DNA of 64,000 nt from Halioglobus sp. (GTDB taxonomy: Bacteria; Pseudomonadota; Gammaproteobacteria; Pseudomonadales; Halieaceae): assembly GCA_029246385.1 (NCBI GenBank), contig JAQWNG010000023.1, positions 1-64,000 on the forward strand, written 5' to 3'. The position numbers and the translations under genes were made by a program. The notes beneath the pieces are model-generated. The model was not told the origin of the DNA and made no database searches. It saw only the letters and a program-made list of their open reading frames with translations. Position 1 is the stretch's first letter. Every line of letters begins with the position of its first letter. Shown here one piece after another: positions 11,131 to 24,926 of the stretch.

Positions 11131-11211
11131 CTACTTCTATTACTCTTATTCCTCTCCCGATCGGCAGTCTGGCGCGTGCTGAGCAATTCTTGTAAATTCC
11201 GCTGGACACAC

Positions 11212-17150: not shown

Positions 17151-18191
17151 ATGAAACTGGGCTTTCTGCTGGGTTATTCTGGCAAGCAAATTCATATACC
17201 GATGGAACTGATACAGCAGGCAGAATCAATGGGCTTCGATTCCGTGTGGACAGCCGAGGCCTATGGTAATGATGCCGTGTCGACTGCCACTTGGATATTA
17301 GCGCAGACTAAAAAGATTAGAGTGGGGACTGCCATTATGCAGATGCCAGCACGATCCCCTGCGATGTGTGCGATGACTTCAATGTCTCTGCACCAGTTGT
17401 CAGACGGCCGGTTTATCGCCGGCCTTGGTGCCTCCGGACCGCAGGTGGTTGAGGGCTGGCATGGAGTGCCCTACGGCAAGCCGGTCACCCGCACTCGCGA
17501 ATACATTCAGATCATGCGTAAAATAATGGAACGCGATGGGCCGGTAGAATTTGATGGAAAAGTGTATCAAATGCCCAATCAAGGCCCTGGCACTACTGGG
17601 CTTGGCAAGCCGCTAAAATCTATTCTGCAAAGTAGCCCCGATATACCTATTTACACTGCGTCTATTACGCCTGCCGGACTAGCGTGTGCCGGCGAAGTTG
17701 CCGACGGGGTATTTCCGGTTTGGATGGACCCGCAAAAATTCAATATTCTGGGTGAGCACCTGGACAAGGGCTTCGCCAAAGCAGGCAATGGTAAGAGTTT
17801 AAAAGATTTTGATGTTGCGCCCTTTGTCATGGTCGCTGCCAATGATGATCTGAACGCGGCCTTTGACTCCCTGCGTCCGTGGTTGGCGCTGTATATTGGT
17901 GGCATGGGTGCCAAGAATAAGAATTTTTACCATGATTATGCGACGCGCCTGGGTTATGGCGACGTTGCTACGCGGATACAGGATCTGTATCTCAGCGGAA
18001 AGAAGGAAGAGGCTCAGGCGTTGGTGCCAGATACGTTGATTGACGAAGTGGCACTGGTTGGATCACACGGAAGAATCATCGAGCGACTGGCGGCCTGGAA
18101 AGAGGCGGGTAAACGTGGTGAGGTTGGCTCCATGCTTCTCAGTGTCGCCAACCCTCAGATCCTAGAGCTATTTGCAAAGGAAATGCTGTGA
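17151..18191 (+). CDS. LLM-class flavin/F420-dependent oxidoreductase
   Basis: The 346-residue protein has the luciferase-like TIM barrel: MKLGF.LGYSG, AESMGFDSVWTAEAYG, TKKIRVGTAIMQ, LSDGRFIAGLGASGPQVVEGWHG and the later PIYTAS..P.GL..AGE.ADG. It most resembles the F420-type LLM proteins abundant in actinobacteria and also found in marine gammaproteobacteria that degrade lipids or steroids. Cofactor (FMN or F420) and substrate cannot be told from sequence alone. It appears single, with a palindromic candidate operator upstream. Confidence 0.85.
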   Translation: MKLGFLLGYSGKQIHIPMELIQQAESMGFDSVWTAEAYGNDAVSTATWILAQTKKIRVGTAIMQMPARSPAMCAMTSMSLHQLSDGRFIAGLGASGPQVVEGWHGVPYGKPVTRTREYIQIMRKIMERDGPVEFDGKVYQMPNQGPGTTGLGKPLKSILQSSPDIPIYTASITPAGLACAGEVADGVFPVWMDPQKFNILGEHLDKGFAKAGNGKSLKDFDVAPFVMVAANDDLNAAFDSLRPWLALYIGGMGAKNKNFYHDYATRLGYGDVATRIQDLYLSGKKEEAQALVPDTLIDEVALVGSHGRIIERLAAWKEAGKRGEVGSMLLSVANPQILELFAKEML

Positions 18192-18288: not shown

Positions 18289-20028
18289 GTGGATAAAACA
18301 GAGCGCTTTGCGCGCACAATACTGAATGGATTCGAATCTTATTTTGCAGAGTTCCAAAACATCACACTGGCAACTCGAACTCGCTTTGAAAATGCCGACT
18401 GGGCTGGAATACGCCAGTCTTCAATTCAACGCACCGATCTGTATAAAGTTAAAACGCATCAAATTTATCAGTATGTCGAGCTGATCGCCGGCGAGGATCT
18501 GCACGACTTTGAATTTTGGCGGGAAGCGCGAAAACTGTATGCGAAGTTAATTGTTGGACACCATAATTTCGAAATAGCCGAGACCTTTTTTAATTCAGTA
18601 TATTGCGCGGTGTTCAAGCATCGTAAAATCCGTGATGAATATGCCTTTGTTTTTTCGCCTCATGGCGATATGCCATCTGTCGATCTGAAGAATGTTTACC
18701 GTACCTATAAAATTCAAGGATCTCTCAGCGACGTTCTCGAAGATTTACTGAACGACTATGCTTTCTCTATCCCTTATGAAGATAGGCAGCGGGATATAGA
18801 CAATATCGGACAAGCAATGATGAAAAGTCCTGAGCTGTCTCTCGGTGTGACGCAAGAGTCAGAAATTCAGGTTCTCGAACATCATTTTTTTCGTAACAAG
18901 GGCGCCTACATAGTTGGACGAATACTATCGGGCGACCAAACGACGCCCTTTGTGTTGCCTATTTTGCATAATCAGTCGGATGCGGTTTTTGTCGATACCG
19001 TTCTTTTCGGTTCGGATAGGGTTAGCGTCCTGTTTAGTTTCACTCGATCCTATTTTCTGGTCCATGCCACCAGGCCTGCTCAGTGTGTCTTATTTCTTCA
19101 AGAACTAATGCCGGCAAAACCTATCTCCGAGATCTACAGTGCCATGGGGCACAATAAGCACGGCAAAACGTATTACCATCGATGCGCTTTTAGGCATATG
19201 ACAAGTACCAGCGACCAGTTTAATATCGCTCCTGGGATCAAGGGAATGGTGATGAGTGTCTTTACACTGCCGTCATACGACTTTGTCTTTAAGATTATAA
19301 AGGATAAGTTTACGCCACCCAAAGATATGACCCGTGAGCAAGTAAAGGCTAAGTATGCATTAGTCAAGCGATGGGATCGTGCCGGTCGCATGGCAGACAC
19401 CCAAGAGTTTACCAATCTAGCTTTTGCGCGAGAACGTTTTTCCGATGAGTTGATGGAGGAATTACGCGAAGTCGCACCTTCGGTGATAGAGGAACACGGC
19501 AAGGCGTTGATTATAAAACATGTGTACGTGGAGCGTCGCATGACTCCGCTAAACCTGTATCTTCGCAGTGCAACCGATGAGCAGGTAGAGGAGGTCATGG
19601 ATGAATACGGTAATGCTATTAAGCAGCTTGCTGCCGCCAATATCTTCCCTGGTGATATGCTGCTTAAGAATTTTGGCGTAACGCGGCACGGGCGAGTGGT
19701 TTTTTATGATTACGATGAAATTGTCCCGCTGACGGATTGCAATTTTCGTGTGCTGCCGCAACCCCGCACGGAAGACGAGGAAATGGCTAGCAAACCTTGG
19801 TATACGGTAGGCCCCAACGATATTTTTCCTGAGGAGTTCTCGTTATTTTTCTCTGGTAACCAGCGCGCGCGCAGAGTGTTTGACACGCTTCACAGTGATA
19901 TCTACGAGGCGTCATTTTGGATTGGGTTGCAGGATAAGATACACACTGGCCACGTTGAGGATTTCTTTCCATATCGCCGGGAGCTTCGGTTTCACCGTCA
20001 ACCTAAACCCGTCTTGGAGAGTGCCTGA
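18289..20028 (+). CDS. aceK: Isocitrate dehydrogenase kinase/phosphatase AceK
   Basis: The 579-residue length matches AceK (578 in E. coli). The C-terminal kinase-like half contains NKHGKTYYHRCAFRHM, the catalytic-loop-like GDMLLKNFGV and the metal-binding FYDYDEI. AceK phosphorylates and dephosphorylates isocitrate dehydrogenase, switching carbon between the TCA cycle and the glyoxylate bypass during growth on acetate or fatty acids. aceA and aceB are not adjacent. GTG start. The stop overlaps the next ATG by one base, so aceK heads a three-gene set with two histidine phosphatases. Confidence 0.96.
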   Translation: MDKTERFARTILNGFESYFAEFQNITLATRTRFENADWAGIRQSSIQRTDLYKVKTHQIYQYVELIAGEDLHDFEFWREARKLYAKLIVGHHNFEIAETFFNSVYCAVFKHRKIRDEYAFVFSPHGDMPSVDLKNVYRTYKIQGSLSDVLEDLLNDYAFSIPYEDRQRDIDNIGQAMMKSPELSLGVTQESEIQVLEHHFFRNKGAYIVGRILSGDQTTPFVLPILHNQSDAVFVDTVLFGSDRVSVLFSFTRSYFLVHATRPAQCVLFLQELMPAKPISEIYSAMGHNKHGKTYYHRCAFRHMTSTSDQFNIAPGIKGMVMSVFTLPSYDFVFKIIKDKFTPPKDMTREQVKAKYALVKRWDRAGRMADTQEFTNLAFARERFSDELMEELREVAPSVIEEHGKALIIKHVYVERRMTPLNLYLRSATDEQVEEVMDEYGNAIKQLAAANIFPGDMLLKNFGVTRHGRVVFYDYDEIVPLTDCNFRVLPQPRTEDEEMASKPWYTVGPNDIFPEEFSLFFSGNQRARRVFDTLHSDIYEASFWIGLQDKIHTGHVEDFFPYRRELRFHRQPKPVLESA

Positions 20029-20735
20029 TGGCTATTATCTACCTCATACGCCATGGTCAAGCGTCTTTCGGGTCTGAAAATTACGACAAGCTATCAGAGT
20101 TAGGATGTCGTCAGGCAACGATTACAGGTGAATATTTTCGTGATCAGGCCATTCACTTTGATGCTGTCTACAGTGGTGATCTGTCGCGGCAGCGCAATAC
20201 AGCTCGGCTAGCGATAGCCAGCCAGCCTGCTGTCGTAGCTCACCATATTGATCCACGCTTCAATGAGATCAACAATGACGAGCAATTGAAATATCTCACG
20301 CCTGAGGTGATAAAAATTAATGCAAAGATTGAGGCGATGGTTAATAAGGGGTTGAGTTCAAGCAAGGATTATCAGAAGGTGATCGAAGCCGTATTCAATT
20401 ACTGGGTGTCTCCTGCCTGTAATGATCTTCGCCTCCAGAGTTGGGCGGAATTTTCCGGAGGTGCACGTCAGGCCATGGTAGATGTGATGCAGGAGCAAGG
20501 GGCGGGTAAAACCATCGGTATTTTCACCTCTGGCGGTACGTTGGCCACTATCGTTGCTCAGGTACTAGGTCTAGATGGTGCAAAAACCTATCAGCTTTAT
20601 GAGCCTATCGTCAATTGCTCTGTTACCCAGCTGTTTTATAGTGGCTCTAAAATTTCACTGTCATATTACAATGACAGCTCCTTTTTGCAGGTGCTGGGTC
20701 AGCAACAGGGCGAAGCACTTATCACCTATCGCTAG
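20028..20735 (+). CDS. Histidine phosphatase family protein
   Basis: The 235-residue protein has the RHG catalytic motif at residues 8-10 (IYLIRHGQASFG), SGDLSRQRNTARLA with the second phosphate pocket arginine, and a late FTSGGTLATIV segment in place of the usual second catalytic 'THG'. It belongs to the phosphoglycerate mutase-like branch 1 superfamily. Substrate unknown. It overlaps the aceK stop by one base (TGATG). Confidence 0.85.
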   Translation: MAIIYLIRHGQASFGSENYDKLSELGCRQATITGEYFRDQAIHFDAVYSGDLSRQRNTARLAIASQPAVVAHHIDPRFNEINNDEQLKYLTPEVIKINAKIEAMVNKGLSSSKDYQKVIEAVFNYWVSPACNDLRLQSWAEFSGGARQAMVDVMQEQGAGKTIGIFTSGGTLATIVAQVLGLDGAKTYQLYEPIVNCSVTQLFYSGSKISLSYYNDSSFLQVLGQQQGEALITYR

Positions 20736-20742
20736 AGACGCT

Positions 20743-21291
20743 ATGGACTTATTTCTCATAAGGCACGGTGAGGCGTCTGCGACTTGGGGAGAGTCTTCTG
20801 ATCCCGGTCTCAGCCGTCTCGGTCAGCAGCAATCTGAGGAGGCTGCCGAAGCATTACAACAGCATGTCTGTAGCGATACACTTCTGTTAAGCAGTCCTTT
20901 GCAGCGTGCGCGTGAGACAGCGATACCGCTGGCTAGAATGTTGCGGCGGGACGTGGCCATTGAGGATGTATTTCGAGAAATTCCTTCACCTGTACCTGTA
21001 GCTCAACGTCAGATATGGCTTCGTCAATTTATGCATCAGCAGTGGGGGGAGCAGGGAGACGAGCTCCTTGCCTGGCGAACCGCGGCGCTGCATCGGCTTC
21101 TGTCACTGACTCAGCCGGCGGCAGTCTTTACCCACTTTTTGGTTATAAATGCGGTGGTCGGACAACTGCTTGATCGGCCTGACACAGTTTGCATATGGCC
21201 AGCCAATGGCTCTATTACTCGATTGCGTCACAACGGTTCTCATCTAGAGTTACTCGCTCTTGGAGCGCAAATGGAGACAACTGTTAATTAG
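20743..21291 (+). CDS. SixA-like histidine phosphatase
   Basis: From the ATG at 20743 the product is 182 residues, MDLFLIRHGEAS, with SPLQRARETAIPLARML and FTHFLVINAVVG (second catalytic His). The ORF track begins 56 codons earlier inside the previous gene, which is not credible. Only 7 bp separate it from the upstream histidine phosphatase. SixA dephosphorylates phosphohistidine on phosphotransfer proteins, but broader substrates are possible. It ends 8 bp inside tesB, tail-to-tail. Confidence 0.8.
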   Translation: MDLFLIRHGEASATWGESSDPGLSRLGQQQSEEAAEALQQHVCSDTLLLSSPLQRARETAIPLARMLRRDVAIEDVFREIPSPVPVAQRQIWLRQFMHQQWGEQGDELLAWRTAALHRLLSLTQPAAVFTHFLVINAVVGQLLDRPDTVCIWPANGSITRLRHNGSHLELLALGAQMETTVN

Positions 21292-22141
21292 GCTTCCGCA
21301 CGCGCTGCAAAGATTCTTGGGCACTGGACGCCACTAGAACCCCATCACGCGTATAGAAAGAGCCTCGGCTGAAGCCGCGTGCGCCCGCTGCCATTGGGCT
21401 GTCCAGACAATACAGCAAGTAGTCGTCCGCTTTAAACGGTTGATGAAACCACAGCGCGTGGTCGAGGCTCGCCGCCTGCACATCCGAGCTCATCCCGGAA
21501 TAAGGGTGGGGTAGTAGCGCGGTACCGAGCAAACCAAAGTCTGACATAAAAGCCAGTATGGTCTGATGCCGCGCAAGATCGTCGCCAAGGTCGCCTAGCG
21601 CGCGAAACCAAATTTGTTGTTGAGGGTCTTGTGGTTGAGGATTGCCGTGATCTCGCGGCTGCACAGGCTTGCGTTCAATGGGTTGTAGTGACGGGGCGTC
21701 TATGGTGCCTGGGTTCTCCTTCGCTAACCTAGACCAGCGATTAAAGTCAGATTCAAGCTCTTCAGGTGGTGGTACTTGCAATGCCTCGAGCTGATGCGAT
21801 AAACCGGGTTCTTCAATGTGAAATGAAATAGATGTACTGAAAATAGCAATGCCACCCTGTCTGGCGATGACATTCCTAGTCGTGAAGCTTTTACCGTCGC
21901 GAATTGGATCCACTTCATAAATGATATTCTTTTTGGGATCCCCGGGGCGCAGAAAGTAGGCGTGCATAGAGTGCGCCGAAAGACCTTTCTCTACAGTCCT
22001 TGTTGCGGCATTAAGTGCCTGCGCCAGGACCTGTCCACCGAAAACTCGCGATGGACGCTTTGGGCTATTCCCTCTAAACAGGTATTTATCCATTTGTTCA
22101 ACTTCAAGAAGTTTGACCAGCTTATCTAGATCACTTGCCAC
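21284..22141 (-). CDS. tesB: Acyl-CoA thioesterase II TesB
   Basis: This 285-residue double hot-dog protein has YLFRGNSP....RVFGGQVLAQAL, HSMHAYFLRPGDP, PI.YEVDPIRDGKSFTTR and late SLDHALWFHQPF with YCLDSP..AGARGFSRG. TesB hydrolyses medium- and long-chain acyl-CoAs. GTG start after GGAG. The tandem TetR gene lies 25 bp upstream on the same strand, so both are probably on one transcript and the regulator may sense acyl-CoA or fatty acid. Confidence 0.95.
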   Translation of the reverse strand: MASDLDKLVKLLEVEQMDKYLFRGNSPKRPSRVFGGQVLAQALNAATRTVEKGLSAHSMHAYFLRPGDPKKNIIYEVDPIRDGKSFTTRNVIARQGGIAIFSTSISFHIEEPGLSHQLEALQVPPPEELESDFNRWSRLAKENPGTIDAPSLQPIERKPVQPRDHGNPQPQDPQQQIWFRALGDLGDDLARHQTILAFMSDFGLLGTALLPHPYSGMSSDVQAASLDHALWFHQPFKADDYLLYCLDSPMAAGARGFSRGSFYTRDGVLVASSAQESLQRVRKPN

Positions 22142-22166
22142 AAAAATACTCCATAAGATTAGTCGT

Positions 22167-23462
22167 TTAAATTTTTTTACGCGGTGCTAAGCCGTTAAAG
22201 AATACGTCGAAGTAGTCAATCGCGGCATCATCGATGTTGTCGACTTTACGCCATCGCTTGATATCCATCGCAGCGTTACGAGCGCCTGTAATAAGATGCT
22301 GCGCTATCAATGTATTGATCGGACGTATACTGCCATCTGTTATTCCCTCGTTTAAAAATGCGCCAAAATTTTCATTGTTCTTATCGGTGCGCTTGAGTAT
22401 CTGGCGTCTGCGCTTCATCGGCAACGCAGTGATGGTGTTGTAGCGTATTAGGGGGCCTTCATCAGAGTTTTGAATATAGAAAATACGGAGGCATGTCATC
22501 TCTGCTTTTTGCAACCCTGTCCCTGCAAACTGCGGAGACTGCGCATGAATTTCCTCGATAATATCTAGAGAAAGGTTATAGCAGTGGAACAGCAGATCTT
22601 CTTTGTTTTTGATCTGGTAGTAGAACGCACCTTTGGATACATGTAGATGTTCTGCAATCTCATCCAGAGAGGTGCCGGTAAAACCTTGTGTATTGAAGAA
22701 GCGGGTGCCTGTTCTAAAGAATGCCTGCTGCTTCAGGCGATTTTTCTCCTCGCGACTAAAGTCCTGTGGATACACTGATTCTTTGTTCTCGTGAAAAACT
22801 TTTGCAGGAGAGTGAGGCGCATTACCGGCACATATGCCGTTGGTAATTATGTCCAGTGCCTCGTTAGCATTGGTTCTTACCTTTTCTCTAGGAATACTAT
22901 GTAGCCAGGAGAACGTCCACTCTACAGAGCCCAAGATTGCGCGGGTGGTGGATGTGGGTTCGCAGTCTCTAATACAGCCTTCTGCGATACCTTGTCGTAT
23001 ATACTCTCGTAGGCGTTTGAATAGTCGTATGTAGCTGGACTCAACGTGTTTGCGATAATCACCCTTGAGTGCAGCAATTTCTAGCAGGGCCGCGACATGA
23101 GGTGCCCTATCTTCCTGCGCCGCAAGCCAGTTTTCGAAATGTTGGAGGAAATAACTTGATGCCCGCTCCAGCGCCCCCGCATGTTGCTTCTCAATCTCAT
23201 CCAAGTTTTTGTGGTGAAGTTCGAGCGCAGCGATGTAGCACTGGTAAATAAGGTCTTCCTTATTTTTTACATAGTAATATAGGCTTGTTTTAGTTAGGCC
23301 TAAGCTTTTCGCAACATCGTGCAACGTGGTGGCGCGCGAGCCCTTGTAATTGAACAGTCTCGCCGCTTGCGACAGAATTGCGATGCGTTTTAAATCGCGC
23401 TGCGCACTCCGGTTAAATGGTGAAGTGCTGCTGCCGTTTGCGGCAAGTATGTCTGGTTTCAT
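22167..23462 (-). CDS. Tandem TetR-family regulator (two TetR units in one chain)
   Basis: The 431-residue product from ATG 23462 contains two complete TetR units. The first HTH is T.LHDVAKSLGLTKTSLYYY.KNKEDLIYQCY (about residues 35-65); the second is SLDEIAEHLHVSKGAFYYQ.KNKEDLLFHCY (about 255-285). Each is followed by a helical ligand-binding-like region of about 140 residues. Normal TetR proteins are about 200 residues and act as dimers, so this is a covalent dimer. The track start ten codons earlier is also possible. Downstream tesB is a likely target or partner. The two halves are similar but not identical, so they may bind an asymmetric operator. Confidence 0.85.
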   Translation of the reverse strand: MKPDILAANGSSTSPFNRSAQRDLKRIAILSQAARLFNYKGSRATTLHDVAKSLGLTKTSLYYYVKNKEDLIYQCYIAALELHHKNLDEIEKQHAGALERASSYFLQHFENWLAAQEDRAPHVAALLEIAALKGDYRKHVESSYIRLFKRLREYIRQGIAEGCIRDCEPTSTTRAILGSVEWTFSWLHSIPREKVRTNANEALDIITNGICAGNAPHSPAKVFHENKESVYPQDFSREEKNRLKQQAFFRTGTRFFNTQGFTGTSLDEIAEHLHVSKGAFYYQIKNKEDLLFHCYNLSLDIIEEIHAQSPQFAGTGLQKAEMTCLRIFYIQNSDEGPLIRYNTITALPMKRRRQILKRTDKNNENFGAFLNEGITDGSIRPINTLIAQHLITGARNAAMDIKRWRKVDNIDDAAIDYFDVFFNGLAPRKKI

Positions 23463-23546
23463 TTGCGGATTCCGGCGAGATAGGACGATCACCTACCCTT
23501 TATTCTATGCTTCCAACTTTAAGTATTATTTTGGATGCTGTCTACA

Positions 23547-24926
23547 CTAGTGTCGAATCGGCTCAGCTGCCAAGTCCATTTGTATATCAAGCCACTTGCG
23601 GGAGCGATAGCGATAAAACAGCAAGATCGCTTTAATGGCGTAGTCTAAAACCATTACTGAGAATATCCAGTAAACCGAAAATTCGAGCCACATAAAGGTC
23701 AGTGCTGGGATCAGCCGGCCAAAGATAATACCGCAAAAGGTCGCAATAAGTGGAAATCTGGTGTCGCCTGCGCCTCGCAGGGCGCCCCCAAGAGTGAACT
23801 CGCAGGCCATCAGCGGTTGAGCCAGAGCTATGAGATACATAAATATTATCGTCAGCTCAATCACCTCAGGGTCGTTAATCATGAAGCTCGCCAGTTCTTC
23901 CGCAAAGGTCGCGAGCACAATGGATAATAGAATCATTGACGCCAGTGCCATACGCAGCGATCGAGCGACAGCCAGTATGGCCAGGTCTGGTTCCCCCGCG
24001 CCCATTTGCTGACCCACAAGAGTGGCAGTGGCGATACCGAAGCCAAAGCCTATCACAATTGGGAATGCAACTAAGGTGATACCAATGCCGTAAGAGGCGT
24101 AAGCCGCGGTTCCGTACTGTGCCACAATGGCAAAAAATGCGAGAAACGCGAGCTGAACGATACCTTGTTCTGCAACTGGCGGTAAGCCGATTTTGATCAT
24201 TTGCTTTGATATTGCCCAGTCGATGCTTTTTCGTTTTGTCGGTTTTAGATTAAAGTGGCCGCGCCACCAAGCGAAAAAGAAGACCATGGTAATAATTGAG
24301 GCGCCAAAACTGCCGCCAAGGGAGACACCAGTAACCCCAAGTTTAGGCAGAGGGCCGATGCCAAACGCCAACAGGTAAGCAAAGGTTATATTGAAAATGG
24401 AACTGAACAACAGAAACCACAGGGGCGTGATGACGTTTCCTGTCGCTCGAAGCGCGGTACTTAGCATCATGCTGATGGCAGAAAAAATGTTGAACAAGCC
24501 GAGCCAAAAAATGAAGCTAGCCGCAAGAGCCGTAGTCTCTTCATCCAGACCGAAGATGCCTGCGATGGCCTCTGGCGCCATCAGTATCGGTATGCTCAGC
24601 ACAGCCGCGAGTGCCACTGAGATTACAAGAGATGTCCATGTGACGATTTCAGCCTGCTTGACTTGCTGTGCCCCCCAGCTGCGCGCGACCATAGCTGTGC
24701 TGGCCACCGATACACCCATTAAAATCGCCTGAATTAGAAAAAATACGCGGTGGCCCGTAGTCACCGCTGCGACGGAGGTCGCACCCAGCTGAGCAACTAT
24801 TTTGATGTGCAGTAAACCCACTGTAGTAAACAGCAGGTTAGAGAGAATATTGGGCCATGCCAGACGCCAGACGGACCGGTTTGTCGAGGTTGGCTTCTTG
24901 GGTGGGGAAGTGGACACGTGACGCAC
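23547..24926 (-). CDS. MATE-family efflux transporter
   Basis: The 459-residue protein has 12 predicted helices in two repeats. Typical MATE segments are visible: WPNILSNLLFTTVGLLH near the N-terminus, LR..GN...P, a second-half start with KIGLPPVAEQGI and GAGEPDLA (VGQ.MGAG). MATE proteins export cationic drugs or metabolites using Na+ or H+. The substrate is not predictable. It lies 85 bp upstream of the tandem TetR gene on the same strand. Confidence 0.93.
   Translation of the reverse strand: MRHVSTSPPKKPTSTNRSVWRLAWPNILSNLLFTTVGLLHIKIVAQLGATSVAAVTTGHRVFFLIQAILMGVSVASTAMVARSWGAQQVKQAEIVTWTSLVISVALAAVLSIPILMAPEAIAGIFGLDEETTALAASFIFWLGLFNIFSAISMMLSTALRATGNVITPLWFLLFSSIFNITFAYLLAFGIGPLPKLGVTGVSLGGSFGASIITMVFFFAWWRGHFNLKPTKRKSIDWAISKQMIKIGLPPVAEQGIVQLAFLAFFAIVAQYGTAAYASYGIGITLVAFPIVIGFGFGIATATLVGQQMGAGEPDLAILAVARSLRMALASMILLSIVLATFAEELASFMINDPEVIELTIIFMYLIALAQPLMACEFTLGGALRGAGDTRFPLIATFCGIIFGRLIPALTFMWLEFSVYWIFSVMVLDYAIKAILLFYRYRSRKWLDIQMDLAAEPIRH

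Follow-up and report, generated by a model that had tools for sequence, protein, structure and literature searches.

A probable autoregulated double-TetR repressor of an acyl-CoA thioesterase gene in Halieaceae

We examined a tandem TetR regulator encoded in a stretch of 64,000 nucleotides from Halioglobus sp. (hereafter, the window) and found that it is probably an autoregulated, single-chain double-TetR repressor of the acyl-CoA thioesterase gene that follows it. The fusion, the operon, a conserved upstream element and a site shared with the tesB genes of a second family were recognised by comparing sequences, and the fold was predicted; from these we infer that the protein acts as a repressor, also of its own gene, that an acyl-CoA is its ligand and that this ligand relieves repression. 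Proteins of this kind are already known as double TFRs, a subfamily with 204 predicted members in actinomycetes (PMC11667970), and what is new is the evidence on the target gene. A literature search, with subscription journals mostly outside it, returned no paper describing a double TFR from proteobacteria or one linked to tesB.

Few studies have dealt with double TetR repressors: there is one structure and no known ligand, and the examples come mainly from actinomycetes. The regulator family described here adds a proteobacterial case that is intact and conserved in many genomes. Its candidate operator is short, and it has one clear target enzyme, for which the acyl-CoA substrates can be obtained commercially. 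With this family, the gain of a fused TetR over a homodimer becomes directly testable.

The tandem TetR gene and its tesB partner

The regulator gene (22167-23462, reverse strand) encodes 431 aa from its ATG, or 441 aa if the GTG at 23492 is used. The protein is composed of an N unit (approximately residues 20-210), a linker (approximately 211-234) of low conservation in the orthologue alignment, and a C unit (approximately 236-431). Both TetR_N (E 1.5e-23 for the whole protein, in two stretches) and TetR_C_24 were matched twice in Pfam. According to these matches and the AlphaFold2 model, TetR_N is followed by an all-helical ligand domain, as in the TetR family, and two complete TetR units stand within one open reading frame, as in double TFRs. 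The two halves align end to end, with HTH motifs at approximately residues 26-75 and 244-294. The tandem arrangement lies far outside what chance would give, and the intact frame with each domain present twice bears out the sequence-only reading, which had described two complete TetR units in one 431-residue protein.

Among 29 aligned Halieaceae orthologues, the N-terminal HTH (residues 26-75; 23238-23387, reverse strand; recognition helix TKTSLYYYV) was invariant at 30 out of 50 positions and the C-terminal HTH (residues 244-294; 22581-22733, reverse strand; recognition helix SKGAFYYQI, usually SKGAFYYHI in relatives) at 25 out of 51. The two recognition helices are unlike each other, and each is nearly fixed.

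The tesB gene (acyl-CoA thioesterase II, 285 aa, GTG start; 21284-22141, reverse strand) lies downstream in a predicted operon, and 25 bp (22142-22166) separate the regulator stop from its start. Its product matched Acyl_CoA_thio and two 4HBT domains (4HBT_3, 4HBT_3C) in Pfam. It belongs to the same family as TesB (TIGR00189), which it matched over the full length (E 1.1e-75), yet its score of 254.7 bits is below the curated cut-off of 292.85; by these profiles it is therefore a thioesterase within the TesB superfamily, but a divergent one.

We found tesB on the same strand 3' of the regulator in all 31 orthologous loci readable that far, with gaps of -4 to 43 bp, and no regulator without tesB was seen in Halieaceae where the contig was long enough to look. 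The pairing was kept while the MATE gene and one histidine phosphatase came and went. Two Halieaceae genomes (G018 and G021) retain tesB without the regulator, which is therefore dispensable for tesB.

The ligands of TetR regulators are often pump substrates, and a MATE gene (23547-24926, reverse strand) adjoins the regulator upstream on the same strand. This neighbour would suit a regulator that acts as an activator, or one whose ligand is a small acid, an alcohol or a drug (e.g. the substrate of the MATE pump) and not an acyl-CoA. We consider this unlikely: many Halieaceae genera have no MATE gene beside the regulator and retain tesB, and the neighbours or sites in other families are acyl-CoA dehydrogenases, short-chain dehydrogenases and tesB. 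Regulation by way of the MATE gene itself was rejected because its adjacency is not conserved. Sensing of acyl-CoA by the regulator is plausible.

Predicted fold and comparison with Mce3R

The one-chain AlphaFold2 model, made from 11 sequences, was confident across both halves (pLDDT 85, pTM 0.82). A Foldseek search against the PDB returned a single full-length match, Mce3R of Mycobacterium tuberculosis (PDB 9b7y), over 424 columns (E 6.5e-8, TM 0.63/0.69, rmsd 6.7) and with 14% identity in the fold alignment, while the similarity recovered by phmmer was limited to the N-terminal HTH. We regard this match of a predicted fold as moderate. After Mce3R only half-length TetRs followed, such as AibR with isovaleryl-CoA, PfmR, KstR2 and FadR. 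By sequence and fold, the closest single-unit matches are AibR, KstR2, PfmR, FadR and DarR, several of which bind acyl-CoA; in contrast to the two units of the window regulator, they have one TetR unit per chain.

Mce3R is the type case of the double TFRs and the only one with a solved structure; its two units together make up a single asymmetric TetR, which has one ligand-binding domain and recognises a 25-bp asymmetric DNA site (PMC11667970). Like the window regulator, it has two TetR units in a chain of similar length, and its operator is non-palindromic and its regulon one of lipid metabolism; the candidate element of the window is not significantly palindromic. The two differ in that Mce3R serves a larger mce3 and lipid regulon through two sites 53 bp apart, whereas for the window regulator each genome shows a single strong site, and the probable target is tesB. 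Since the Mce3R arrangement is known, asymmetric packing and one pocket rather than two independent ones would be expected here. The model and the full-length match to a protein folded in this way support, at the level of prediction, the covalent dimer that the sequence-only reading had proposed. Of the two properties it attached to that dimer, different DNA half-sites are likely, given recognition helices that differ, each nearly fixed, and an element that is not significantly palindromic; two different ligands found no support, as judged by analogy with the shared ligand-binding domain of the Mce3R halves.

Two chains might instead pair N-N and C-C. The assembly would then comprise two symmetric TetR units, offer two ligand pockets and recognise two palindromic operators. 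The completeness of both units, each with a full ligand-binding domain, and the poorly conserved linker would fit such pairing, but Mce3R, the sole solved double TFR, folds otherwise (PMC11667970), the confident one-chain model matches it over 424 columns, and in place of two palindromic operators a single element without significant palindromy was found. We therefore hold this arrangement to be quite improbable.

Distribution and age of the fusion

The regulator was present as a single gene in 30 out of 36 Halieaceae genomes, that of the window included, or in 31 with a contig-end fragment. The 30 are near full-length matches in one open frame, and those in the relatives have 51-87% identity. 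The gene is also carried by a cultured strain, Sediminihaliea albiluteola. The orthologues are single ORFs of 423-445 aa with 50-87% identity to the window protein. This rules out a frameshift or assembly artefact, with two separate genes in relatives, which had been named as what would overturn the fusion. In G009 a contig edge leaves the C-terminal end of the regulator, followed by tesB. G018 has lost the regulator and, next to it, the greater part of the tag gene; there, a 23-residue DNA-3-methyladenine glycosylase remnant (L147 5137-5205) lies just 5' of tesB, where the regulator was deleted. In G021 the MATE gene is followed directly by tesB with no regulator between them, G023 and G027 have neither the regulator nor a close tesB, and the incomplete assembly G002 has just a distant thioesterase and no regulator.

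A tree of the halves also covered the G031 paralogue and distant tandem proteins, found in records of Cellvibrionales, Porticoccaceae, Rhodospirillales and Kordiimonadaceae. In it the N halves all grouped together, and the C halves nearly did so. A recent internal duplication was rejected, with N and C halves grouping apart and not as nearest kin, on a tree whose deepest branches are weak (90/69). One old fusion of units that were already different would be the simplest reading, and on these sequence relationships the double-TetR family is of ancient origin. The N half also resembles many single-unit TetRs, from Woeseiaceae and other bacteria, mostly at 33-39%; these are ordinary proteins of approximately 195-240 aa. 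An order-wide search recovered relatives matching the tandem profile from 19 out of 295 genomes, which belong to at least six families. One Halieaceae genome (G031) encodes a second, distant tandem TetR (L134 6025-7191) with 27% identity, next to genes for a TonB-dependent receptor and an MFS transporter.

A conserved element on the predicted regulator promoter

The Halieaceae loci have in common, upstream of the regulator, the sequence TAGACAGCGACAAAAAAAATACTTAAAGTTGGAATTnTAGAATnnnnAGTA. This element of approximately 40 bp lies on the predicted promoter and has several positions fixed in all 29 loci; in the window, the candidate operator is ATACTTAAAGTTGGAAGCATAGAATAAAGGGTA (23494-23526, reverse strand). 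It overlaps a predicted sigma-70 promoter (TAGACA, 17 bp, TAAAGT; 23516-23544, reverse strand), whose hexamers are conserved in the Halieaceae alignment, in a region where the scan gave no more predictions than in shuffles. Conservation extends downstream of the -10 hexamer (GGAAT...GA...GTA). No palindromic operator was recognised, the best centre being not significant (p ~0.1).

With a model of the element, a site 5' of the regulator was found in the genome of the window as well as in 22 out of 22 tested regulator-bearing relatives (E 2.6e-11 to 0.0025). Extra matches elsewhere were only weak, and no site was found in three relatives without the regulator. Read directly, these matches describe a regulator that acts locally and is dedicated to its own unit. 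In the motif search of genome G000, 150 of 1054 first-look candidates were scored. A second site in the window's own genome (C5:5946, E 0.002) was rejected; it lies inside a GH10 xylanase-like ORF, recurs only in G005, where the stretch is 98% identical, and is no better than the matches of a reversed control pattern, which are just as numerous.

Sites at tesB where the two genes are apart

The whole Halieaceae neighbourhood is syntenic, and adjacency alone is thus a poor proof of a link between regulator and tesB. We rejected it as evidence by itself and used instead the Porticoccaceae-like family f42, with L042, a Porticoccaceae record, as its named member. The f42 regulator is 35-39% identical to that of the window, and tesB is neither directly downstream of it nor in one transcription unit with it. 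The DNA upstream of this regulator carries AGTATGTTATTCTTCTGCAAAGTATAA-like sites. The f42 motif model (A4, R2), trained on seven of these regulator-upstream sites and on no tesB sequence, gave two sites per genome in six out of six genomes, one upstream of the regulator itself and one other. In all six, this second site preceded either tesB itself or a unit made up of a curA-like oxidoreductase gene and tesB, approximately 140-220 bp from the gene start where that start is clear (the curA-like start in G313 is uncertain). It was 0.82 Mb from the regulator in G254 and on a different contig in G234; G331 was overlooked by the model search, and a direct scan shows both of its sites. Individually the tesB sites are weak (E 0.06-0.66), and the weight of the evidence comes from all six falling at tesB. 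Such convergence on a single gene is not due to chance; since these are related genomes, they do not count as six independent events. No such site was found upstream of tesB in two f42 genomes that have tesB without the regulator (G344 and G351), and in most other regulator-less f42 genomes tested this tesB was absent altogether. In the genomes examined, the other side of the f42 tesB site is occupied by a divergent acyl-CoA dehydrogenase gene, followed in G234 by two more and a short-chain dehydrogenase. The coupling to tesB named in the sequence-only reading is supported, and much better than a 25-bp gap could do, by the conserved operon and, in genomes that separate the two genes, by the sites they have in common.

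That the element is a mere strong promoter with an A-tract, the regulator acting elsewhere and tesB being held in place by inherited synteny, would agree with its TAGACA-17-TAAAGT hexamers and the syntenic neighbourhood, but it is made very improbable by conservation beyond the -10 hexamer, by the f42 regulator-upstream model independently reaching distant tesB genes, and by the lack of the element in genomes without the regulator.

The f42 tesB site TTGAACTTACAGTATGTTATTGTGACTTTCAAGTAT (L209 ~11170-11206; L245 5597-5622) contains two direct AACTTnnAGTAT-like half-sites approximately 21 bp apart, and the Halieaceae element, when reversed, contains one AACTTnnAGTAT-like half-site. The elements of the two families have only this core (approximately AACTTnnAGTAT) in common, and their layout differs.

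Proposed mechanism

In the double-TetR repressor that we favour, a single chain would form a ready-made, asymmetric dimer, in which the N and C units pack like the two protomers of an ordinary TetR and present two different HTHs, with one composite ligand pocket by analogy with Mce3R. On its own promoter, the protein would bind the conserved element, which is apparently not a palindrome. Free of ligand, it would cover the promoter and repress the two-gene regulator-tesB unit; when an acyl-CoA or a similar ligand builds up, it would leave the DNA. TesB would then be made and would hydrolyse acyl-CoA to the free acid and CoA, lowering the acyl-CoA pool.

A wider proposal, to which we give somewhat less than an even chance, is that of a proteobacterial double-TetR family with a fusion of its own origin, which would have served as a dedicated, acyl-CoA-responsive thioesterase switch since before the split of Halieaceae and the Porticoccaceae-like family, with two different HTHs that read a non-palindromic operator (in f42, an AGTAT direct repeat at 20-21 bp).

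Other genes in the window

Two adjacent histidine-phosphatase genes lie at 20028-21291, and one or the other is absent in some Halieaceae. The second of them (20734-21291) is on the opposite strand, converges on tesB and overlaps its 3' end by 8 bp. A distant tandem TetR of family f43 (L216, L218 and L221; 24-26% identical) is followed within approximately 100 bp by a same-strand histidine phosphatase, 31-36% similar to that at 20734-21291. Finally, a luciferase-like protein (17151-18191), encoded next to aceK, exceeds the TIGR03559 cut-off for the F420-dependent Rv3520c subfamily, in a gammaproteobacterium.
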